A model generated the notes under the pieces. It made no database searches and was not told the DNA's origin. It saw only the letters and a list, made by a program, of their open reading frames with translations. Both the position numbers and the translations under genes were made by a program. Source: Metridium senile (lineage: Eukaryota > Cnidaria > Anthozoa > Actiniaria > Metridiidae). Taken from it: 64,000 nt of DNA. The stretch lies in assembly GCA_949775045.1 (NCBI GenBank), contig OX459100.1, positions 7,105,462 through 7,169,461 on the forward strand, in the 5' to 3' direction. Shown here piece by piece: positions 10,854 through 23,388 of the stretch (position 1 is the first letter of the stretch; every line of letters begins with the position of its first letter).

Positions 10854-12284
10854 TTACTGCCTGAGTAGAAGTAATTTGTCATGATATATTTGCTTGATTG
10901 CGCCACGGCTTAATACAGTAATATGTTGAAACTTGTCGCAGATCACTCTGTCAATTCTTTTTTTCACAGAAGCCAACACATTTTCTTTGTAAGAATCAGA
11001 ATCTAGAACAGAAAGGCACAACATTGCTGACAATCTGTCATGCACCACAAAGTTTTCTCCAAAACAATTTACAGCTATGCAGTGATCAGCTGGCTTTTCA
11101 ACTCTCTGATAGGTATCTGTCGTTGGGTTGAAAATAACAAGACGACAATGAGTCCACCCAAATTGAACAAAAATCTTGGTGTTTAGCACTGAAGCAGATA
11201 TCTTTGTTTCGAAATCAAGTAACCTGATATCTCCCGAAGGGAGTGGTAGAGGAGTCCAAGTGTTTGTACACATATCATATCTCTCGCTGTCCCAAGCCCC
11301 AAATACATATAGATAGCGGTTATTGTAAGATACTACACAATCAGTTAAATACATATGACCTTTAATCATTGCCTGCATTTCTTTCCAGTCATCATTAACC
11401 GTGTCATAACGATAAACTCTGTGTGTAAGGTGGCCTCCTTTAAAACCTCCTAACAAGTATATAAATATTCTGCATTGGATACACAAATAATGTGAATTTA
11501 TACACCAAGAAAAAGGAGCACATTTGGTAACTGTCCCAGTGTTACAGTCCAACTTTACATTAAGCAAAGTCCAACTATATTTGCTTTGATCAAATCCCAA
11601 TCCAAATATAAATATTTCGTGTTGTACTGGGATTACATGATAGATTTTACATTCATTGTCAACTTGACCAATAACTGTACTAAAAGCATACACTTTAGAA
11701 GCCATTGGCATCCAGTACTTGAAGCTATATATAGCCTCTACACCTATACTTGTTCTTGATGGGTCCATGTTAAAACCTAGTACTGCGATGTTGGTGATAT
11801 TCTCCTGATGAATCAACCTCTCAACGGCATCCACACGTTGAGGCAAGAATTTCTTGTATTTACGTAGTTCAGGTAAAACTTTATCCAAATGATATTTCTT
11901 GATGATCACCGATAAGACATCTTTATTGATTACACTCAGTTCTACTTTACCAAATAGTCGTTTAAAAGCATTCTCTCGTTGGCTTTGTGAATGTTTATAC
12001 CATCGTACCAAGCTATCTAATATAGCTGCTTCTGATATCTTAATATCTTCGTTGTCGAGGATCCAGTTCATTTCATTTTCATCTAAAGCCAAGAACTGAT
12101 CCGTGTGTGAAATATCCATGAAATTATCATAAATGAACGAGTGAACGATGTGTTTGATTCTCTGGCAGTGTACATGAGGTACAAGCCTATAAACAGACCA
12201 GATATTGAAGGGAGAGAGATAGCCACTAACTGTTAAAACACAGAGATCTTCGAGAGAAACTATATTGCAACTAGCAGCAGCCAT
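10854..12284 (-). CDS. BACK-kelch protein lacking a BTB domain
   Basis: An intronless 476-residue ORF. Residues about 40-145 form a BACK domain of the kind found in KLHL adaptors, with NEMNWILDNEDIKISEAAIL and KYHLDKVLPEL. The rest reads as degenerate kelch repeats, the clearest being IYLLGGFKGG followed by VYRYDTVNDDWKEM. KLHL proteins normally carry an N-terminal BTB domain that dimerises and binds CUL3. Here the ORF starts MAAASC just before the BACK region, and no BTB is encoded upstream in this frame. The ATG sits in a fair context (AACATGG). A minus-strand AATAAA lies near 10635. Role inferred: substrate binding without its own cullin contact, or partnering with a BTB protein. Alternative: a retrocopy or 5'-truncated KLHL whose frame stayed open. 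Confidence 0.85.
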   Translation of the reverse strand: MAAASCNIVSLEDLCVLTVSGYLSPFNIWSVYRLVPHVHCQRIKHIVHSFIYDNFMDISHTDQFLALDENEMNWILDNEDIKISEAAILDSLVRWYKHSQSQRENAFKRLFGKVELSVINKDVLSVIIKKYHLDKVLPELRKYKKFLPQRVDAVERLIHQENITNIAVLGFNMDPSRTSIGVEAIYSFKYWMPMASKVYAFSTVIGQVDNECKIYHVIPVQHEIFIFGLGFDQSKYSWTLLNVKLDCNTGTVTKCAPFSWCINSHYLCIQCRIFIYLLGGFKGGHLTHRVYRYDTVNDDWKEMQAMIKGHMYLTDCVVSYNNRYLYVFGAWDSERYDMCTNTWTPLPLPSGDIRLLDFETKISASVLNTKIFVQFGWTHCRLVIFNPTTDTYQRVEKPADHCIAVNCFGENFVVHDRLSAMLCLSVLDSDSYKENVLASVKKRIDRVICDKFQHITVLSRGAIKQIYHDKLLLLRQ

Positions 12285-12713: not shown

Positions 12714-12799
12714 GGGATTTCCCCTTTATCATCACGTGATAACACCCCTGCGGCTGACGAGCCTATTTTAGATAGGGGCTTTCCCTTCTTGATCACGTG
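12714..12799. promoter_or_regulatory. Duplicated kappaB plus E-box module
   Basis: GGGATTTCCC at 12714-12723 is followed by CACGTG at 12733-12738. GGGGCTTTCC at 12775-12784 is followed by CACGTG at 12794-12799. Both 10-mers fit the Rel/NF-kappaB consensus GGGRNNYYCC. In both cases the E-box starts exactly 19 bp after the kappaB start, and the modules are 61 bp apart. They lie 540-600 bp upstream of the 13316 ATG and about 430 bp upstream of the divergent kelch ATG, so either gene could be the target. Confidence 0.5.
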
Positions 12800-13315: not shown

Positions 13316-13726
13316 ATGGTGTCCCAGGCTACTTGGTTCTTTCAACGTAAGGACTGTTTAACATTCGCAGCTATTGTATTGCTGTTGATTCTAGAGCAAG
13401 CGTGTTCTACTAAAGCTTGTCCCAATCATGAACACGACTTCAGGGAGGCAGGATGGGGAGTCACAAGGATCTCGATTCACAGTAAAGTGCGATGGGTTAC
13501 TCGATCGAAAACGAAGCTAATAGGAATAACTGTGTCTTCAAATAGCGTCCAAGGAGGTGCGGAGATCACTCATGAATTCTATATCAAAAGCGCAGTGACT
13601 ATGTGCTCTAAGTGTGGCATGGCGACGGGGATGGTATTTATGACACTGGATCAGTTGAGGCAGGTAGCTGCACTTAGGCCTGCGTTAGAGCCCTTGTTAC
13701 AGAAAGCTATTGCTGCACAACACTGA
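13316..13726 (+). CDS. Small secreted Cys/His protein without ER-retrieval tail
   Basis: 136 residues from the ATG at 13316; the frame stays open further upstream but only through a TTG. A hydrophobic stretch, TFAAIVLLLILEQACS, at residues about 16-31 looks like a signal peptide or signal anchor. Then come CPNHEHD (C35) and, near residue 97, MCSKCG preceded by HEFYIKSAVT. The KDEL-tailed proteins nearby show CQHGHHD, then VEFYL, then CRKCG, so the layout is the same and I infer distant homology. The spacing between the two Cys clusters is longer here. The C-terminus is an alanine/leucine-rich helix-like tail ending AAQH, with no KDEL. A splice-acceptor-like TTTTTGCAG ends one base before the ATG, so a 5'UTR intron is possible. 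Function unknown. Confidence 0.6.
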   Translation: MVSQATWFFQRKDCLTFAAIVLLLILEQACSTKACPNHEHDFREAGWGVTRISIHSKVRWVTRSKTKLIGITVSSNSVQGGAEITHEFYIKSAVTMCSKCGMATGMVFMTLDQLRQVAALRPALEPLLQKAIAAQH

Positions 13727-14705: not shown

Positions 14706-15167
14706 TTATAGTTCATCTTTGTGTTCAGTAAAGAAGTGTTGTCCACATTTCCTACAGTATCTATCTTGTACAACTACCACTTGATCTTCAAGATAAAACT
14801 CCACAGGTTGTTCAGCGTTCACAGTGTCATGATGTCCGTGTTGACATGGTGTTACCTTCTCTACGCGATACGAGTTTTCAGTAACAATCACTCTTGCATG
14901 CTCTACTTCTTGCTTGAACTCCTTGGAAGTCTTACGAATTCTTCTCACACCAATGCCTTCTAGAATCGATCTTATTGGTTTCTCAATTACTTCCTTCCCA
15001 AATTTCTCCAAAGGTTTCACGATTCCTCCTCGTATAACATGACGGTCAAACTTTACTAGAGTCTTGTCGATAAATTTAACGATGTTGTTGATGAAGCCAT
15101 GGCTTTCGTTGACACTAAACGCGAGAAAGAGAGATAGAGCGATCAAAGCGAGAGTTGACGTCTTCAT
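14706..15167 (-). CDS. KDEL-tailed small secreted Cys/His protein, copy 1
   Basis: 153 residues in a single exon. Residues 1-23 form a clear signal peptide (MKTSTLALIALSLFLAF). Residues about 24-80 are a basic, amphipathic segment (KFIDKTLVKF, VIEKPIRSIL). Residues about 83-153 are the conserved domain: EFKQEVEHARVIVTE, C108-Q-HGHHD, C138-R-K-C141-G, ending HKDEL. The terminal KDEL is the canonical signal for retrieval to the ER by the KDEL receptor, so the mature protein should live in the ER lumen. The Cys/His set suggests a metal site or disulfides; that is inference. The 3' 210 bp is about 98 percent identical to the copy at 20513, while the N-terminal half is strongly diverged. I recognise no named family. 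Confidence 0.85.
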   Translation of the reverse strand: MKTSTLALIALSLFLAFSVNESHGFINNIVKFIDKTLVKFDRHVIRGGIVKPLEKFGKEVIEKPIRSILEGIGVRRIRKTSKEFKQEVEHARVIVTENSYRVEKVTPCQHGHHDTVNAEQPVEFYLEDQVVVVQDRYCRKCGQHFFTEHKDEL

Positions 15168-15267
15168 ATTTGGATTCTTTCCTCTTTTAGTCTATGAAAC
15201 AAAAGTTCCTTTGGATCACTCACTCTCTTAGCATGTCGTGCTACGGAGAATAGTCTTGCTTTACACT

Positions 15268-15309
15268 GATTGGTTCAGAGTGATTATGCAATGACTAGGG
15301 AAAATTCCC
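15268..15309 (-). promoter_or_regulatory. kappaB-like palindrome and CCAAT box
   Basis: GGGAAAATTCCC at 15298-15309 contains GGAAAATTCC, which fits GGRRNNYYCC. It lies 131 bp upstream of the 15167 ATG. The same 12-mer, in the same orientation relative to its gene, precedes the 20968 ATG. GATTGG at about 15268-15274 is a reverse CCAAT box. Confidence 0.45.
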
Positions 15310-15960
15310 ATCCGAAAACAAGCTGAGTCACGATTCTGCGAATTGTTATTGAATTTATTAATAATAGAATAGAATAATGGGATTTGATACTCGTGAATAA
15401 TCAGGTAAATTTTGCAGCAATATGCTTCTTGTGGTAACTCCCCCCCCCCCCCCCCCCCCCCGTTCGCCTGTCACGCAACGCCGTGTTTGGTTGTTACTGC
15501 TTAGCGCAGCGCAGTAATGCTAAAAATAGCTCCAAGACTCAGACAAACATTGTGTCCAGTTTAACCGTGTTGAGCAATATATGAACCGATCTTATCATTT
15601 CTTGCTTAAATTAGAATAACAACGTGATTAAACAAAGATTTGCTTCGATCGGCACTGAAAATAGTGTGCTGAAAGTTAAATCAAAGTTTATTTGTCCGAG
15701 TTAGGCCTTTGTATCCATTTTTGTGACGTCATTAATGCGCTGCGCATTTAAATAGAGCTACATGCCTTCATTGAAATTATGTTTGATTGGAATTCTTGGA
15801 GTATTTCGCAATGAACGATAAATTTACCAATCGATCGGGCTTTGTTTAATATGATTAGACAGCGTTGCCGGCGGTATTCAAGGTCAAAGCAGGCTATGTA
15901 TTAAATGACAAAGGTTTCCAAGTCGGCCCACGTTACAAGTGTTTACAAGTACAGTCACAT
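15310..15960. other. Spacer with poly-C tract
   Basis: A run of 22 C at 15440-15461 and otherwise unique sequence. No gene is supported. Confidence 0.5.
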
Positions 15961-15964
15961 GTAA

Positions 15965-15989
15965 GGGGAAATCCCCGTGGACAACGTCA
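15965..15989 (+). promoter_or_regulatory. kappaB-like site followed by a CRE half-site
   Basis: GGGGAAATCCCC at 15965-15976 contains GGGAAATCCC, a good Rel/NF-kappaB match. ACGTCA (TGACGT on the other strand) follows at 15984-15989. The pair lies about 140-165 bp upstream of the 16129 ATG. The paralogous gene at 23086 has the same order, kappaB then TGACGT, at a similar gap. Confidence 0.45.
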
Positions 15990-16128
15990 CATCCCGGGCT
16001 GCACTTCCCTCGAATGCAGCTCTAAATCCGGGCTCTAAATATCTTGGAATCGTATCCTCCGAATACGCTCCTGACGAGACAAGTGGAAGGCCTCACAAGT
16101 CCTCTCAGTTTTAGTAGTTGTACATAAT

Positions 16129-16557
16129 ATGTTTTATAATCAACTCAAATGGATTGTGATCTTGTTTGTTTGGTTTGTTACGATCAAGAGTTCAAATAGC
16201 GAACGATTTCCGGTCAAAGTCGACAGAGAAACAGGCGAGCTGTATTACGAACAAGAGACAACAACAGGACTCCAAAAGGTTGTGATACGACAAGCTGACG
16301 TGGAATACCAGAAAGAAGAAAAGAAATCAGTCAAGACTAGCGGAGGAATTAAGCTCGATAAAAGCGGAATAGGAATACAGTTTACACGGGAAAAACACTG
16401 GCAACATACCGTTAGCTACTCACGAAAAGGAGGAAAGATTGAATTGCCACTGACAGAGGCTTGTCTACTTGATGCTGGATGTAGGGAGTCAGTACTAGGA
16501 ACAGTGAATAATAGCATTGCTGAAGATGGAAGGAAATCACTCGAGAAAATCAACTGA
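16129..16557 (+). CDS. Small secreted protein of the FPV-D-T-Y family, copy 1
   Basis: 142 residues in a single exon. Residues 1-24 are a signal peptide (WIVILFVWFVTI). Directly after it comes RFPVKVDRETGELYY (26-40), which matches DFPVDFDPKTKKIVY in the 23086 gene. Both are followed within 10-12 residues by a Lys/Gln-V/M-V-I strand (QKVVIRQ, KKMVITM). The middle is charged, with short strand-like patches (GIKLDKSGIGIQF, HTVSYSRKGGKIEL). Two Cys (112 and 117) lie near the C-terminus. AATAAA at about 16775 follows the stop by 220 bp. There is no retrieval tail, so it is probably secreted. No known family recognised. Its place among KDEL-tailed genes with similar promoter sites suggests a shared programme. 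Confidence 0.7.
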   Translation: MFYNQLKWIVILFVWFVTIKSSNSERFPVKVDRETGELYYEQETTTGLQKVVIRQADVEYQKEEKKSVKTSGGIKLDKSGIGIQFTREKHWQHTVSYSRKGGKIELPLTEACLLDAGCRESVLGTVNNSIAEDGRKSLEKIN

Positions 16558-17420
16558 GATTGACCTCAATTTGTATATAGCAAAGGAGCGTGTACGATAA
16601 TGCTGTAAACATAGGAGCTGTTATCTAGCTAGTTTATATAAGCGTGTACTATAAATGATGAAAACTTATTATTTGCATAAATATAGCCAATATGCATGGC
16701 CCTAAATGTCATGTACACAATTTTTGTCCACGTCATTGTATTAAATTTACTAGTTCAAACCTAATCTGTATGCAATAAACATAAGTTGCCTTTGAAAGTG
16801 TTGTTTTTGCAATTCTGATTGGTCATTAATTAGAAAAATGCCTAAACCCAATTCAAATCAAACTGTAGCTTGCACAGACATGAAAGGTAAAAACCTTCCC
16901 TTTCCTTTCCCCCTTCCCATCCCCTCCTCACCCTCTCGATATATCCTCCTACCTCCTTAACTCTGCCCTTACTAGTACTTTCTCTCTCGCTTCGTCCTTA
17001 AAGACACCACCTAACCCCCCCTACACACCCACATCCACCCTTCTTGCCCCAACACCCCTTCCCTCACCTCTTTCCCTCTCCCACACCTCCTACATAAATA
17101 ATCTCTTGCCTCCCCTCTTAGCTGTTCTCTCACCTCTGACATAAAGACCCCTCACTCCATTCCATTTACCTCATTCCTTACAATTCTCTTATCTCTCCCC
17201 CCTTCTTTAACTCTCTTTACCTCCCCTTTACTCTTCCCCTGGCGCCTAGCATCCCCCTTAAAAACCACCCTTACTTTTTCTTTACATCCTTCTTCATGTT
17301 CTTCCTCTGTTTCTATCGACCTGCACTATGTGCCACATGATCCACTTCTCTCCAGTTTCCCAACACCTTCCACGATCTCGCGTGGACCGTGTTTGGACTT
17401 TGAGCTGGGTGGTGGCATGC
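16558..17420. other. Spacer with polypyrimidine region
   Basis: 16558-16890 holds the 3' end of the gene before it. About 16890-17290 is strongly C/T-rich on the + strand (CCTTCCC, CTCTCTC and similar), with no gene. Triplex or H-DNA potential only. Confidence 0.55.
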
Positions 17421-17422
17421 AG

Positions 17423-17506
17423 GGGGAAACCCTTTAAAGTGAGATAGCCAGGGGTTTCCCCCAACAGTTTTAAATAGTCTGTTATCTCATGCAAGACGAT
17501 ATAAAA
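17423..17506 (+). promoter_or_regulatory. kappaB-like sites and TATA box of the REEL gene
   Basis: GGGGAAACCC at 17423-17432 is a partial match. GGGGTTTCCC at 17451-17460 is a full match to GGGRNNYYCC. Together they form a loose palindromic pair. TATAAAA at 17500-17506 is 130 bp before the ATG and predicts transcription from about 17530. The G/C-run site lies about 40 bp upstream of the TATA box. Confidence 0.5.
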
Positions 17507-17635
17507 CAGCTCGAATACATCGAATAACAACTACCATTTTCTGGGTCCTGCAGATAGCTTGGTTGGTTACGAGAAAAGCTAGGCAACAATACATTGAATC
17601 AAGAGCGTTGCAGTTTACAGTCATTTTACAGAAAG

Positions 17636-18010
17636 ATGAACAAGATTGCACTCCTGGTCCTGTTTTCATTGAGCACAGTTTGTGTCAACGAAGTCAGCTC
17701 TAAGATGAACTTTGGTGACGCGCTGGGGAAAGCAATCAAAACGTTTGCCACAATCGCCAACCTTGTGAAACGACTCGAACACAAGTCCTACGAAGAATTC
17801 ATCCAAGAAGTACAGCATGCAAGAGTGATTGTTACTGAAGACTCGTATCGCGTAGAGAAGGTAATACCATGTCAACATGGACATCATGACATTGTGAAGA
17901 CTGAACAACCTGTGGAGATTCATCTAAGAGACGACATCGTCGTTATGCAAGACCGCTACTGCAGGAAATGTGGACAACACTTCTTTAGTGAACCGAGAGA
18001 AGAACTGTAA
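17636..18010 (+). CDS. REEL-tailed small secreted Cys/His protein
   Basis: 124 residues from the ATG at 17636. I chose it over the in-frame ATG at 17594 because a clean signal peptide (MNKIALLVLFSLSTVCV) then starts the protein. Residues about 23-50 are a short amphipathic basic segment (GKAIKTFATIANLVKRL), unrelated in detail to those of the KDEL copies. From residue 53 the conserved domain follows: EFIQEVQHARVIVTE, C79-Q-HGHHD, C109-R-K-C112-G, ending EPREEL. REEL is a plausible KDEL-type variant for ER retrieval. AATAAA at 18099-18104 gives a 3'UTR of about 100 bp. It is more diverged from the two KDEL copies than they are from each other. Function unknown. Confidence 0.85.
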   Translation: MNKIALLVLFSLSTVCVNEVSSKMNFGDALGKAIKTFATIANLVKRLEHKSYEEFIQEVQHARVIVTEDSYRVEKVIPCQHGHHDIVKTEQPVEIHLRDDIVVMQDRYCRKCGQHFFSEPREEL

Positions 18011-18118
18011 ACAAGCCGAACATTATTGAAGGCTGCGAAACAATCCCTTCCTTGGACTCTGCAAGGAGTGATTACAAGGATGAGATATATAGATATAGAA
18101 TAAATACAGAATAATTTT

Positions 18119-18255
<137 letters not shown>

Positions 18256-18362
18256 TAATTACTAACACACACATACACAAAATTTATAATTAATACACAA
18301 TGCCACAATGACAAACGAGAAGACTGTAGTTATTTACATTTATTTACAGGGGCTTCGAAGTT

Positions 18363-18662
18363 TTATACAATAGAGTTGATTCCGTATATGACTGTGAAAA
18401 GTGCGGTGCCGTGTGCGTGCCTTGCCGCAACCGTAATGTCTCTAGAATTTTGATGTGCCTTGCCATGCCTTGACCACGTTTGTGTCGTGAGCTCTGCATA
18501 GTCATACAAACTTTGCTCTAATGTAAAATAGTTCTTACTACAAACAATAGACCGAATACAAATATGGCGACCTCCTATTGTTCGTGACTGTCTAGCCTCG
18601 TGTTCATGTTGCAAAAACAATTGCAATAAAGTTTCCACATGTATTCGAGGGTGGTCAGTCAA
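18363..18662 (-). CDS. Doubtful small ORF or terminal exon
   Basis: An open frame of 99 codons with ordinary residue composition (HEHEARQSRTIGGRHICIRS). AATAAA lies about 25 bp after the stop. It begins at a TTG, and the only upstream clue is a TTTTAG acceptor-like sequence. It could be a last exon whose gene I cannot see, or chance. No family recognised. Confidence 0.15.
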   Translation of the reverse strand: MTDHPRIHVETLLQLFLQHEHEARQSRTIGGRHICIRSIVCSKNYFTLEQSLYDYAELTTQTWSRHGKAHQNSRDITVAARHAHGTALFTVIYGINSIV

Positions 18663-18729
18663 AATCTAAAATTATTCAAATAAAAAGGTCATCAAATCAA
18701 CCGTGATTTATAAACTCTAGCATGCGTTA

Positions 18730-19160
18730 CTGCTTGGGAATGGGGTGGGGTACACAATTTTACTAGGTAGGGTGGGGTGGGGTACAAAATTTCACTAGGT
18801 AGGGTAGGGTGGGGTAGGGTACACAATTTTACTAGGTAGAGTTGGGTGGGGTACACGATTTTACTAGGTAGAGTTGGGTGAAGTACACAATTTTACAAGG
18901 TAGGGTGGGGTGGGGTACACAATTTTACTAGGTAGAGTTGGGTGGGGTACACATTTTTACTAGGTAGGGTGGGTACACAATTTTACTAGGTAGGGTGGGG
19001 TACACAATTTTACTAGGTAGAGTTGGCTGGGGTACACATTTTTACTAGGTAGGGTGGGTACACAATTTTACTAGGTAGGGTGGGGTGGGGTACACAATTT
19101 TACTAGGTGGGGTGGGGTACACAATTTTACTAGGAAGGGTGGGGTAAACAATTTTACTAT
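18730..19160. repeat. Minisatellite, GGTGGGGTACACAATTTTAC unit
   Basis: About 14 copies of a 24-38 bp unit built from ACACAATTTTACTAGGTAG followed by a variable number of GGGTG blocks. Strongly G-rich on +. Confidence 0.9.
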
Positions 19161-19424
19161 AGCATGTGTGGGACTGATCATAGATATTTATAAGCTTTTA
19201 AAATAATTCGCATTTAGAAAATTTCCTTTATGCTCATCTATACACATGAGATGCATATTTTATTCGAAAATATATGTAGGCAATTTATAGTAAGCTAATG
19301 AAAGTGAACTGAAACTACAATAGTGGCACGATGTTAGCATTTTATTTATAGGAACCCGTTACTGGAGATCCTCTCTGTGGGTTTTATCCCTGCCTAACAT
19401 ATAGTGTGGCGAATCTTGTAAATC

Positions 19425-19640
19425 AGAAATAGAAAATTTCATAATGACTACTTCTTTTGTTTAAGTATAAAAATGTATTACCCGGCCTTTACCCCCTCTT
19501 CCCTCCCCCCCCCCCCCCCCCCCCCCAATCATATCATTGTAGGAATGATAGCACATTGAGGCTGGGGTAGTAGCAGAATTTCAGCAGTGCTAAAATGATT
19601 TTATCACATTCGTGCCAACACGTTTGTCAAGATAATAGCC
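19425..19640. repeat. Inverted copy of the 24400-24545 segment
   Basis: Reverse complement matches to 24400-24545 include GTGTTGGCACGAATGTGATAAA, TTTTAGCACTGCTGAAATTC, a central poly-C tract and TTTAAGTATAAAAA. The C tract here is about 24 nt (19502-19526). Confidence 0.65.
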
Positions 19641-19721
19641 TTTCCTAATTTGCTTTTAGTGTAGTCACAACTCTTGCCGCTGCGCTCACACGAAAACGTA
19701 GAGAATATGTGCATGCTCTCC

Positions 19722-19802
19722 TCAGTTTTGCTCCTTCCCTCCCTCCCTCCCTTTCTTCCTCCCTTCCTCTCTCCCTCCCTCTCTCTTCTCCCTTTCCCTC
19801 CT
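19722..19802. repeat. CCCT/CTTC polypyrimidine tract
   Basis: Imperfect CCTT and CCCTCT units. Low complexity. Confidence 0.85.
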
Positions 19803-20226
19803 CACCAATCCCTCAGAGTCGTCACGCAAGCGACTGAATTACTTATAAAAATTGGTTATTTAAATGTCTTTATTCCCGGATTATTAATCTATAAATCAAT
19901 ACTATTATGATTACTATTATGATTATTGTTTCCATACATAATAGTTGACAAGTAAAGTTGTAACAAGATATTACATACGTACATTTTATTGGAACTCCCC
20001 ATAGGGCTTTTCAGGCCAATTTACAAGTGATAATTAAGTTATATATGATAATAGAAAACCTAATTTACAATCAAGAAAATTTATAAAATATTATATATTC
20101 GGTTCCCCTTGTATTTGTTACTGGTTGAGTGATAGCGATTTATCGATAAATCAATATTACTGTTTCCATGACTATTAGTCACTATCAAAGACAAGTAAAG
20201 TAATTGTAATGAGGTATTGTTTCCTT
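19803..20226. other. Gene-free spacer
   Basis: AT-rich. It contains TTTATCGATAAATC near 20138, a perfect palindrome of the DRE type (TATCGATA). No gene. Confidence 0.45.
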
Positions 20227-20290
20227 CTCGTTCCCAGAGCCCACGGTAGCCCGTCCAGTTTCGAAAGTTTCCGTGGGCTCTGGGAACGAG
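20227..20290. mobile_element. 64-bp hairpin with 20-bp arms
   Basis: CTCGTTCCCAGAGCCCACGG at 20227-20246 is perfectly complementary to 20271-20290. It looks like the fused ends of a GTTCCCAG-type MITE. Similar ends occur near 9440 and 37495. Confidence 0.7.
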
Positions 20291-20512
20291 AATGAGTTTC
20301 TGGTTGATAAATAGCGACTAAATAGTCACTAAATACAAACCATTAGTCAGTAGCTGTATTGATTGTATTTCATGGTTTAGTAAACGATTGCGCTCCACTT
20401 CATAGATTAGATATTTGCGCTCTCCAGTGTTTGCGCAAATTTTCACAATTCGTTCCAGTCACCCGTCCTCTTTTCACGACACAGGCAACCCAAACGACAA
20501 TGATTTCCAATG

Positions 20513-20968
20513 TTATAGTTCATCTTTGTGTTCAGTAAAGAAGTGTTGTCCACATTTCCTACAGTATCTATCTTGTACAACTACCACTTGATCTTCAAGA
20601 TAAAACTCCACAGGTTGTTCAGTCTTCACAGTGTCATGATGTCCATGTTGACATGGTGTTACCTTCTCTACGCGATACGAGTCTTCAGTAACAATCACTC
20701 TTGCATGCTCTACTTCTTGCTTGAATTCTCGTCTCGTTTTCCTCACTTTCTTCTTCAAACCAACAGCTTTTAGAATGTTTTTGATGGGCTTTTCGATGAC
20801 ATGTTTAACGACTTGTTTAACTGGTTTAACGACAACGTTCTTCACGATTTTCTCGACTCCCTTGAAGAGACGTTTGAGACGAAATTTACACTCAACTTCG
20901 GCCACTAGACTCAACGTTAAGAGTCCTACAAAGCATACTAATAATGCCCCTCTCATCTTTACCCCCAA
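20513..20968 (-). CDS. KDEL-tailed small secreted Cys/His protein, copy 2
   Basis: 151 residues, or 147 from the second Met at 20956, which fits a signal peptide better (MRGALLVCFVGLLTLSLV). Residues 28-80 are very lysine-rich and amphipathic (FRLKRLFKGVEKIVKNVVV, KPIKNILKAVGLKKKVRK), the most cationic of the three. The conserved domain (81-151) carries EFKQEVEHARVIVTE, C106-Q-HGHHD, C136-R-K-C139-G and ends HKDEL, predicting ER-lumen retention. The last 70 codons differ from copy 1 at only about four nucleotides, but the N-terminal halves align only around VIEKPI and RKT. Similarity to copy 1 stops right at the stop codon, so the identical block ends sharply. I infer gene conversion or selection-driven N-terminal divergence. 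The lysine-rich segment resembles a membrane-active peptide; that is inference. Confidence 0.85.
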   Translation of the reverse strand: MGVKMRGALLVCFVGLLTLSLVAEVECKFRLKRLFKGVEKIVKNVVVKPVKQVVKHVIEKPIKNILKAVGLKKKVRKTRREFKQEVEHARVIVTEDSYRVEKVTPCQHGHHDTVKTEQPVEFYLEDQVVVVQDRYCRKCGQHFFTEHKDEL

Positions 20969-21009: not shown

Positions 21010-21046
21010 TTTTATAGTCTGCTTTAGTTTAAAAGGGAAAATTCCC
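21010..21046 (-). promoter_or_regulatory. TATA box and kappaB-like palindrome
   Basis: TATAAAA on the minus strand (21016-21010) and, immediately upstream, GGGAAAATTCCC (21035-21046). That 12-mer is identical to the one at 15298. With the TATA 42 bp before the 20968 ATG, the 5'UTR would be very short. Starting at 20956 gives a slightly longer leader. Confidence 0.5.
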
Positions 21047-21255
21047 GTAGTATATTTAAATTGCAAATGACGATATATAGGTAACGCTAAGGGGGTTTCC
21101 GGGAACATAACGCAAGGAATATTGTCACAGAACTAGAATTCAAAAATTGTCACGCAAAATTGTTTAGTAAGCATAAACTTTTTAGATTTTTTGCTTCAGT
21201 AGTTGTCGCTATCTGTTTTGATACTTTTATATTTAAATATAGCTTTTGACGGCCA

Positions 21256-22943
21256 TTAAGGTGGCCCGGTAGTATTGACTTTGCAGGATAAACATAATTT
21301 TGTAACGCATTATTTTGCATCTAAACTTTGTCCGATTTCTACGAAATTTACACATATAGATCTCAAAACTTTGAAGTTTGAGCTAGTCATATTTTAAGTG
21401 CGATTTGTGGAAACTATAAAGAGAAATAATGTTTTTTTAAAGAGCACACGCTTTACTTAAATTGTCAATAAATCAAAACTTAGAAGATGAATTTATTTCT
21501 TTTTTTGAGAGAATGTTATTTGGTTATATGGAAACATATTGTAGCAGTTTTATTCAAATATTGACCTTGGAAGTTTTTTTACAAACGTTTTTAAATTTTT
21601 GCGCGCAAAATTAATATAAAAATTCCATTGCTCAAATCTCAATGAGAATTAAAACATAGTTACAAATTTACCTGTAGAAAGAAAGACCAATACCTCTTGT
21701 AACTTCTAATCACAAAATAGCGACTTTGAAGCCAACATTGCTAGCTCTGATTTCTTGAAGAGCTTGTCGACATATTGTTGTTCACTGCGTAGTGAGCATT
21801 TCGAAAATATATCTACTCTATTTCTTCAATTGTTGACCTTGATTTTTCTATATAGCGTAGATACATGCTTAAGAGTCATAACTGTGAAATGTGGTCTTCT
21901 GTGCTGTTCTAAAAATGACAAAATTAGCGGCCAACGTACAGCAACCACGTTGCTCGTTCATTATACCTCGTTTGACTTCCAAGGAAAACCCTTCGTGTTA
22001 TGTTTATTTACATCAACTTCACAACCTCATAATCCGTGAACACCGGTTCTGCACGAGGAATGTCTTTTTATGCAAATACAGAGACAATTCAGGCGTAAAC
22101 ACTGCATCTTTTTTTCTATTTCTATTCGCAAAAAAGACATTCCTCGTGCGGAATGTGTTCACGGATTATGAGTTGTGAAGTTGATGTAGATAAACATAAC
22201 GCGAAGGGTTTTCCTTGGAAGTCAAATGAGGTATAATGAACGCGCAACGTGTTTGCTGTACGTTGGCCGCTAATTTTGTCATTTTTAGAACAGCACAGAA
22301 GACCACATTTCACAGTTATGACTCTTTTAAGCATGTATCTACGCTATATAGAAAAATCAAGGTCAACAATTGAAGAAATAGAGTAGATATATTTTCGAAA
22401 TGCTCACTACGCAGTGAACAACAATATGTCGACAAGCTCTTCAAGAAATCAGAGCTAGCAATGTTGGCTTCAAAGTCGCTATTTTGTGATTAGAAGTTAC
22501 AAGAGGTATTGGTCTTTCTTTCTACAGGTAAATTTGTAACTATGTTTTAATTCTCATTGAGATTTGAGCAATGGAATTTTTATATTAATTTTGCGCGCAA
22601 AAATTTAAAAACGTTTGTAAAAAAACTTCCAAGGTCAATATTTGAATAAAACTGCTACAATATGTTTCCATATAACCAAATAACATTCTCTCAAAAAAAG
22701 AAATAAATTCATCTTCTAAGTTTTGATTTATTGACAATTTAAGTAAAGCGTGTGCTTTTTAAAAAAACATTATTTCTCTTTATAGTTTCCACAAATCGCA
22801 CTTAAAATATGACTAGCTCAAACTTCAAAGTTTTGAGATCTATATGTGTAAATTTCGTAGAAATCGGACAAAGTTTAGATGCAAAATAATGCGTTACAAA
22901 ATTATGTTTATCCTGCAAAGTCAATACTACCGGGCCACCTTAA
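21256..22943. mobile_element. 1.68-kb near-perfect palindrome flanked by TTAA
   Basis: Two arms of about 810 bp (21260-22070 and 22125-22939) read as near-identical complements, with differences of only a few percent by eye. They enclose a loop of about 55 bp. The ends are GGTGGCCCGGTAGTATTGAC and its complement. TTAA lies at both outer edges (21256-21259, 22940-22943), the target duplication used by piggyBac-type transposases. The ORFs inside (21755, 21891, 22122) are mirror images of one another and non-protein-like. It is a non-autonomous fold-back element between two small secreted-protein genes. Confidence 0.85.
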
Positions 22944-23012: not shown

Positions 23013-23037
23013 GGGGAAAACCCCTTGTATGACGTAA
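23013..23037 (+). promoter_or_regulatory. Rel-type site followed by a CRE-like site
   Basis: GGGGAAAACCCC at 23013-23024 fits the Dorsal-type GGGWWWWCCM. TGACGTAA follows at 23030-23037. They lie 50-73 bp upstream of the 23086 ATG. The same pair order is seen at 15965-15989 before the paralogue. Confidence 0.45.
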
Positions 23038-23085: not shown

Positions 23086-23388
23086 ATGGCAGCACTACAT
23101 CTCAGCATAAAACTCTTCTTAACCCTATGTATTTTATCTAATATTGTGTCAATTACTATCTGCGAGAAGAAAATGGAGTTTGATTCAGAAACCAACGAGA
23201 TAATATATGTAGAAGATAAACCAGCATGCAAGGACTTTCCGGTGGATTTCGACCCCAAGACCAAGAAGATTGTGTACAAACCAGGACCAAATAGATGTAA
23301 GAAGATGGTGATTACAATGGAGAAAGACTCAGAGATAAAGATTGAACAGAGTGGGAGCGAAAAGGTTACTTACAAGATTGGATTTTAG
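23086..23388 (+). CDS. Small secreted protein of the FPV-D-T-Y family, copy 2
   Basis: 100 residues from the ATG at 23086; the frame is open upstream only from a TTG. Signal peptide about 1-26 (LSIKLFLTLCILSNIVSI). Two tandem copies of a short motif follow: MEFDSETNEIIY (30-41) and FPVDFDPKTKKIVY (51-64). Each ends in Tyr, and Cys48 and Cys71 bracket the second. The motif matches FPVKVDRETGELYY of the 16129 gene, so I place them in one family. The protein ends VTYKIGF, with no retrieval signal. It is the last recognisable member of the cluster. Function unknown. Confidence 0.65.
   Translation: MAALHLSIKLFLTLCILSNIVSITICEKKMEFDSETNEIIYVEDKPACKDFPVDFDPKTKKIVYKPGPNRCKKMVITMEKDSEIKIEQSGSEKVTYKIGF

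Follow-up and report, generated by a model that had tools for sequence, protein, structure and literature searches.

Small residents of the endoplasmic reticulum (ER) lumen of the KDEL type, such as MANF/CDNF, MZB1 and ERp29, combine a signal peptide, a small size and a KDEL-like tail, and MANF is stress-inducible. ER-tailed small proteins and zinc ribbons are each known kinds of protein. Here we describe a locus of the sea anemone Metridium senile in which three genes, called family 1 below, encode proteins with a KDEL-type tail and a domain of conserved Cys and His residues resembling a zinc ribbon, within a cluster of small-protein genes preceded by kappaB-like sites. The window, meaning the whole 64,000-nucleotide stretch that was analysed, is C6:7105462-7169461 in a genome of 389 Mb and 169 contigs. 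We found no description in our literature searches of the combination present here, namely an ER tail, a zinc-ribbon-like domain, a probable conserved neighbour and kappaB-like promoters.

The three genes of family 1 are:

14706..15167, minus strand: gene A, 153 residues; hydrophobic N-terminus, long basic amphipathic segment, Cys/His domain, KDEL.
17636..18010, plus strand: gene C, 124 residues; short amphipathic segment, Cys/His domain as in A and B, REEL.
20513..20956, minus strand: gene B, 147 residues; very basic amphipathic segment (net charge +18), Cys/His domain, KDEL.

They share a common layout, in which a hydrophobic N-terminus is followed by an amphipathic segment, a C-terminal Cys/His domain of 71 residues (72 codons including the stop) and an ER-type tail. 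The initial annotation of this DNA had read three single-exon genes with shared motifs in a domain of about 70 residues; the open frames are present, their coding parts read without an intron, and the domain is common to all three. Its third gene, given as 20513-20968, has the correct frame and a misplaced start, position 20968 being a TTG and the first ATG lying at 20956; the types of tail were also right and their order was not, with KDEL at 14706 (-), REEL at 17636 (+) and KDEL at 20513 (-). When all six frames of the genome were searched with gene A, three copies of the family were listed, all of them in the window, where match counts from this search are to be taken as lower bounds. The N-termini of the three proteins, judged by hydropathy, reach Kyte-Doolittle values of 2.7-3.0 over 10 residues, and the proteins probably enter the secretory pathway.

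Relatives of family 1 were listed by a protein search (33 proteins at E <= 1) and a profile search (85 proteins at E <= 10), the window's own gene A being included in both counts; the protein search requires shared five-residue words and could miss distant relatives elsewhere. The matches that carry an organism name come from Exaiptasia diaphana, Nematostella vectensis and two Porites species, with Exaiptasia LOC110232456 (153 residues) being 73% identical to gene A in an alignment that spans 100% of the query. We take these genera to belong to Hexacorallia, which includes the sea anemones and the stony corals as orders, and where relatives are named the family thus appears, so far, to be confined to hexacorals. 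Pfam, the PDB sequences and a fold search gave no convincing match, the viral and prokaryote collections yielded no relative, and the view that no described family has this architecture stands in the sequence, profile, fold and NCBIfam comparisons made. No publication in the literature searched names LOC110232456 or contains the sequence strings tried. Judging from the opening of their abstracts, neither the papers listed on KDEL or ER retention in cnidarians, sea anemones, Nematostella and corals nor those on cyclic GMP-AMP (cGAMP) in Nematostella are apparently about such proteins, and in the excerpt of PMC3141003 the single occurrence of KDEL stands in a cited title. In three relatives, P0081-P0083 (P0081 being from Porites evermanni), the readings depart from family 1 directly after the residues RKTYQEF, a hint that coral genes have an intron at the domain border, unlike the genes of the window.

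The ER-type tail is a conserved feature of these proteins. The [YF]CRKCG knuckle is kept in 76 of the 85 proteins from the profile search, and among these 76, with the nine lacking the motif excluded, 64 (gene A among them) end in [KRHQSA][DENQ]EL and 68 in EL, the residues directly before the tail being variable and the tail itself kept. Within the window, exactly three of the 83 ATG frames of at least 60 residues have such an end, and these are genes A, B and C. The genome holds a KDEL-receptor gene, seen as two adjacent partial matches to PF00810 on C5, each above the cut-off, and the tails therefore have a reader. As for additional downstream exons, which would have displaced the tails from the C-terminus, there is no sign of them, the Exaiptasia protein aligning over the full length of the query. 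The suggestion that these are genuine KDEL-type signals is thereby strengthened, and residence of the family 1 proteins in the ER is likely.

The Cys/His domain conserves three Cys and one His in the pattern C-x4-H-x24-C-x2-C. C-x4-H...C-x2-C is found in 74 of the 76 knuckle-bearing proteins, with the H-x24-C spacing in 71 of those 74, and exactly three Cys occur beyond residue 30 in 58 of the 68 proteins that have at least 115 residues. The CQHGHHD motif reported earlier is present and not fully constant, the invariant positions being the Cys and the last His only. In the predicted model, residues 81-150 have block means of 85-94 for the predicted local distance difference test (pLDDT), and the pairs C108/H113 and C138/C141 are placed in turns that connect strands. 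A prediction of this kind had been proposed as a check for a zinc site, and it placed strands and turns accordingly without producing a fold match. A zinc-ribbon-like site would fit the conserved residues better than disulfides or thioredoxin chemistry, and binding of zinc by the domain is likely on these grounds.

The window was searched with GGGRNWYYCC, the textbook kappaB consensus. Three further genes for small proteins belong to the same cluster:

13316..13726, plus strand: family 2 gene, 136 residues; hydrophobic N-terminus, C-x2-H-x-H(D)...C-x2-C, no ER tail.
16129..16557, plus strand: small secreted-type protein, 142 residues; single genomic match, without an ER tail.
23086..23388, plus strand: small secreted-type protein, 100 residues; single genomic match, without an ER tail.

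The kappaB-like sites, all given without strand, are:

12714..12784: two sites, 602 and 541 bp upstream of the 13316+ start codon.
15298..15309: 12-bp palindrome, 131 bp upstream of the gene A start codon; fails the 10-bp consensus.
15965..15976: palindrome GGGGAAATCCCC, 163-164 bp before the ATG of 16129+.
17422..17462: gene C sites; consensus at 17451, 185 bp upstream of the ATG, and a poorer match at 17422 with 2 mismatches.
21035..21100: gene B sites; a 12-bp variant at 21035 (79 bp before the ATG) and the consensus at 21091 (135 bp).
23013..23024: site GGGGAAAACCCC, 71-73 bp upstream of the 23086+ start codon.

All six small-protein genes have kappaB-like sites upstream, and in five of them the distance to the ATG is 71-185 bp. 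Strand matches to the consensus itself number 11 in the window; 100 shuffles average 2.6 and never reach 11. Merged, the matches make seven sites, six of them inside the 12.6-23.1 kb cluster, and four of the six genes have one no more than 500 bp before the ATG (at about 163, 185, 135 and 71 bp; shift-null P 0.004). When three kappaB patterns are taken together, the 10.5 kb cluster holds eight sites against 0.7 expected (Poisson P 6e-7), where 20 background stretches of 10 kb (200 kb in all, taken from two contigs of this genome) have a mean of 0.65 and a maximum of 3. According to the excerpted text of PMC10329013, a predicted kappaB site lies within 500 bp in 16 of 200 random genes, and Nematostella NF-kappaB binds TRAF3-promoter probes holding GGGAAAGCCC, GGGAAACCCC and GGGGAACTCC; one of the gene C sites reads GGGAAACCCC and is thus contained in a probe bound by Nv-NF-kappaB. 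The site preference of anemone NF-kappaB is described as p50-like in an excerpt of PMC5700166. Because the promoters of the six genes carry such sites, the cluster is probably induced by NF-kappaB, a form of control that we regard as somewhat better than an even bet.

These observations can be joined in a single explanation. Activation of NF-kappaB in immune or stress responses would increase the transcripts of the cluster, that is, of six genes for small secretory-pathway proteins. The family 1 proteins would enter the ER by their signal peptides, and recognition of the C-terminal tail by the KDEL receptor would return them from the Golgi. Their constant domain would fold around a single structural zinc with Cys108, His113, Cys138 and Cys141 as its ligands, and the amphipathic segment would bind membranes or client proteins. 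Stabilised in this way, they would build up in the ER lumen and help to prepare the secretory pathway or the defence products secreted through it, and the products of 13316, 16129 and 23086, which have no ER tail, would be secreted. The analysis shows the genes, the conservation of the tails and of the Cys and His residues, the density of the kappaB-like sites and the near-identical tract described below; the place in the ER, the zinc, the control by NF-kappaB and the gene conversion are inferred from these. We give ER residence, zinc and NF-kappaB control a probability of roughly 0.35 of holding jointly. A function as ER-lumen helpers is a guess and a doubtful one; that the whole is a hexacoral NF-kappaB immune cluster, in which ER-retrieved zinc-ribbon proteins with variable amphipathic helices and an adjacent family of secreted partners with a similar metal signature form a defence module of the secretory pathway, is more speculative still and on present grounds unlikely.

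Several results weigh against this explanation. The fold search gave no match for a zinc ribbon, its list being taken up by the helical part, and the profile search of PDB sequences ranks ubiquitin hydrolase 6 (E 0.12, on the helical part) above eS31 (E 2.8). The strict tail is missing in 12 of the 76 knuckle-bearing proteins, which end in KTEL (two), KKEL, KYEL or KDKL, extend beyond KDEL (P0006, P0018), have other ends (P0026, P0050, P0069) or stop right after the knuckle (P0075, P0077). The window contains no match to the ER stress element (ERSE), and the 500 bp upstream of each of the six genes contain none to the unfolded protein response element (UPRE), so that the cluster does not resemble a classic chaperone of the unfolded protein response. 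Gene A has only the 12-bp variant of the kappaB site, 13316+ has no site within 500 bp, and the sites were read in the promoters of this genome only.

An artefact of composition or ascertainment, with a cluster that is not immune-regulated, would account for the kappaB-like sites in another way. The motif was chosen after the sequence had been read, with variants added later; the GC content of the cluster is slightly above background (0.384 against 0.352), and the looser GGG-N6-CCC occurs five times in the window outside the cluster. Three kappaB-like sites are present as well in the 10 kb that adjoin the window on the right (L026, C6:7169462-7179461), the highest number in any of the 20 background stretches. 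Against such an origin stand the excess over the window shuffles and the short distances of the sites from the ATG in five of the six genes. Moreover, the ten other motifs tried alongside, the gamma-activated sequence (GAS), interferon-stimulated response element (ISRE), cAMP response element (CRE), ERSE, UPRE, AP-1, E-box, heat-shock element (HSE), TATA and GATA, show no enrichment. We regard the artefact as possible, if improbable.

The main rival explanation assigns the activity to the amphipathic segment, and holds that family 1 comprises stored, membrane-active defence proteins which the tail keeps in the ER until stress or loss of calcium. The mean hydrophobic moment of the segment in 18-residue windows exceeds that of 500 shuffles in all seven sequences scored (P 0 to 0.016), which were seven of ten chosen sequences with the signal removed at a fixed residue 23 and not by prediction. 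Its net charge ranges from +2 in gene C to +18 in gene B, P0017 repeats a 19-residue amphipathic unit, as judged by eye, and the segment could bind membranes or acidic partners. The kappaB-like sites of the cluster would suit defence proteins, and ER-tailed proteins may be released when ER calcium falls, as stated in an excerpt of PMC8276033. On account of such release, and of a possible action of the segment on membranes, the proposal in the initial annotation that the proteins are not simply secreted effectors may or may not hold. The segment of gene C is, however, short and weakly basic, and the best conserved part of the family is the acidic Cys/His domain and not the helix; we regard storage of this kind as unlikely.

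That the tails are incidental, the proteins being ordinary secreted effectors or venom components, is in keeping with their small size, their hydrophobic N-termini, the restriction to one lineage among organism-named matches and the absence of an ER tail in the other cluster members, but it leaves the retention of the tail next to variable residues without a reason, and with three Cys the proteins do not look like a disulfide-rich toxin; we hold it to be quite improbable. Least probable is a role as thiol-redox or general folding factors of the ER lumen with CRKC as a thioredoxin-like active site, since a CxxC in an ER-tailed protein speaks for it whereas the CxxC is invariantly paired with C-x4-H, the number of Cys is mostly odd, the CxxCG lies in a beta-hairpin of the predicted model with C138-C141 at a strand end and turn and not at a helix start, and no thioredoxin family appears among the Pfam matches of the window proteins or the best 25 of 44 families for 52 members. 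The initial annotation had left open a metal-binding or redox-active protein; the three Cys and one His favour the metal, and redox activity is without specific support.

The initial annotation had passed over the family 2 neighbour, the kappaB-like sites and the relationship between genes A and B, which share a tract with abrupt borders:

14706..14921, minus strand: near-identical tract, gene A side, shared with gene B.
20513..20728, minus strand: near-identical tract, gene B side, partner of the gene A tract.

The tracts are identical at 211 of 216 nucleotides, with none of 24 fourfold sites differing, and the identity has sharp limits, one where the domain begins and the other at the stop codon. 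The N-termini of A and B are 35% identical and their domains 95%. Among 12 relatives compared, the N-terminus of A is nearest to Exaiptasia P0002 (61%) and that of B to P0003 (72%), and the domains are 87% and 86% identical to those of the same relatives, below the 95% between A and B. In a tree of the domains, built from a small number of columns, A groups with B (100/88) and C with P0025 (95/91). As the domains are closer to each other than to relatives and the N-termini show the reverse, we infer that gene conversion homogenised the domains of A and B, and that three older types of family 1 gene exist, two of which have homogenised domains. Constraint alone was rejected as the source of the near-identity, given the fourfold sites and N-termini of distinct types that are shared with relatives. 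The constancy of the domain noted at the outset would then be owed partly to recent copying within the window (A and B); its constancy across species would not.

Family 2, represented by 13316+, has 105 listed proteins, the window's own included, of which 95 carry C-x4-H...C-x2-C; from the first conserved Cys on, 88 of the 95 have exactly three. In the genome, 13316+ has one clear match, a second having E 0.85 and 20% identity, and a stretch like a splice acceptor, seen by eye immediately before its ATG, suggests a 5' noncoding exon. The longest contigs listed for families 1 and 2 have equal lengths in seven cases, where jittered lengths would give 0.75 (at most 5 in 5000 draws), and in three cases among contigs of at least 8 kb, against 0.01 expected; one of the seven (1565) has differing source labels and is probably due to chance. 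On the basis of these equal lengths, family 2 seems to be a conserved genomic neighbour of family 1. Homology of the two families is not shown, the profile comparison covering 16 columns at a probability of 5.9%, and their common C-x4-H...C-x2-C may have arisen by convergence. The pair of sites at 12714-12784 lies also 430 and 491 bp before a divergent BACK/Kelch frame, 10854-12284 (-), and the Kelch gene may share its control. The proteins of 16129+ and 23086+ resemble each other weakly (E 0.018) over a short FPVxxDxxT stretch, and that of 23086+ has a sub-cut-off Pfam match to PF23763 (20 bits against 28). Between the gene B promoter and 23086+ there is a foldback at 21256-22943, with outer arms of 620 nt that are 100% complementary and inner arms of 155 nt that are 97% complementary; it may represent a foldback element of very recent origin, a locus for hairpin RNA or an error of assembly. 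A tandem array at 18739-19190 has a spacing of mostly 32 nt and a unit like GGGGTACACAATTTTACTAGGTAG.

To our knowledge, few direct effectors of cnidarian NF-kappaB are known, and the cluster, which is unannotated and seems to be conserved, offers a small and directly testable set of candidates in corals and anemones. Most cnidarians have a single NF-kappaB, according to an excerpt of PMC13042239. Family 1 would add an undescribed family to the residents of the ER lumen, and the defence module outlined above, if true, would be one not described in other animals.

Among known systems, the rubredoxin domain of PknG (PF16919) matches the CxxC half of the family 1 domain weakly, with E 0.057 and 13.8 bits for gene A and E 0.029 and 14.8 bits for gene B against a cut-off of 28.5; this covers about half a metal site, and gene C has no match. 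The zinc ribbons of archaeal S27ae/eS31 have, like family 1, a CxxCG knuckle on a C-terminal beta-hairpin. These matches are weak as well, both among PDB sequences and in NCBIfam (E 0.006 and 16.5 bits for gene B, E 0.011 and 15.7 bits for gene A, against a cut-off of 54), and family 1 differs in its C-x4-H first knuckle, in being a probable secretory-pathway protein and in the missing fold match. The families of MANF/CDNF, MZB1 and ERp29 are not among the Pfam matches of family 1 (best 25 of 44 families for 52 members), and their Cys pattern differs; unlike these MANF-type residents, family 1 has upstream regions with kappaB-like sites in place of ERSE or UPRE. The TRAF3 gene of Nematostella has no protein relationship to the cluster, but the part of PMC10329013 that describes its promoter gives it the same kind of kappaB sites, within 500-1000 bp of the start.

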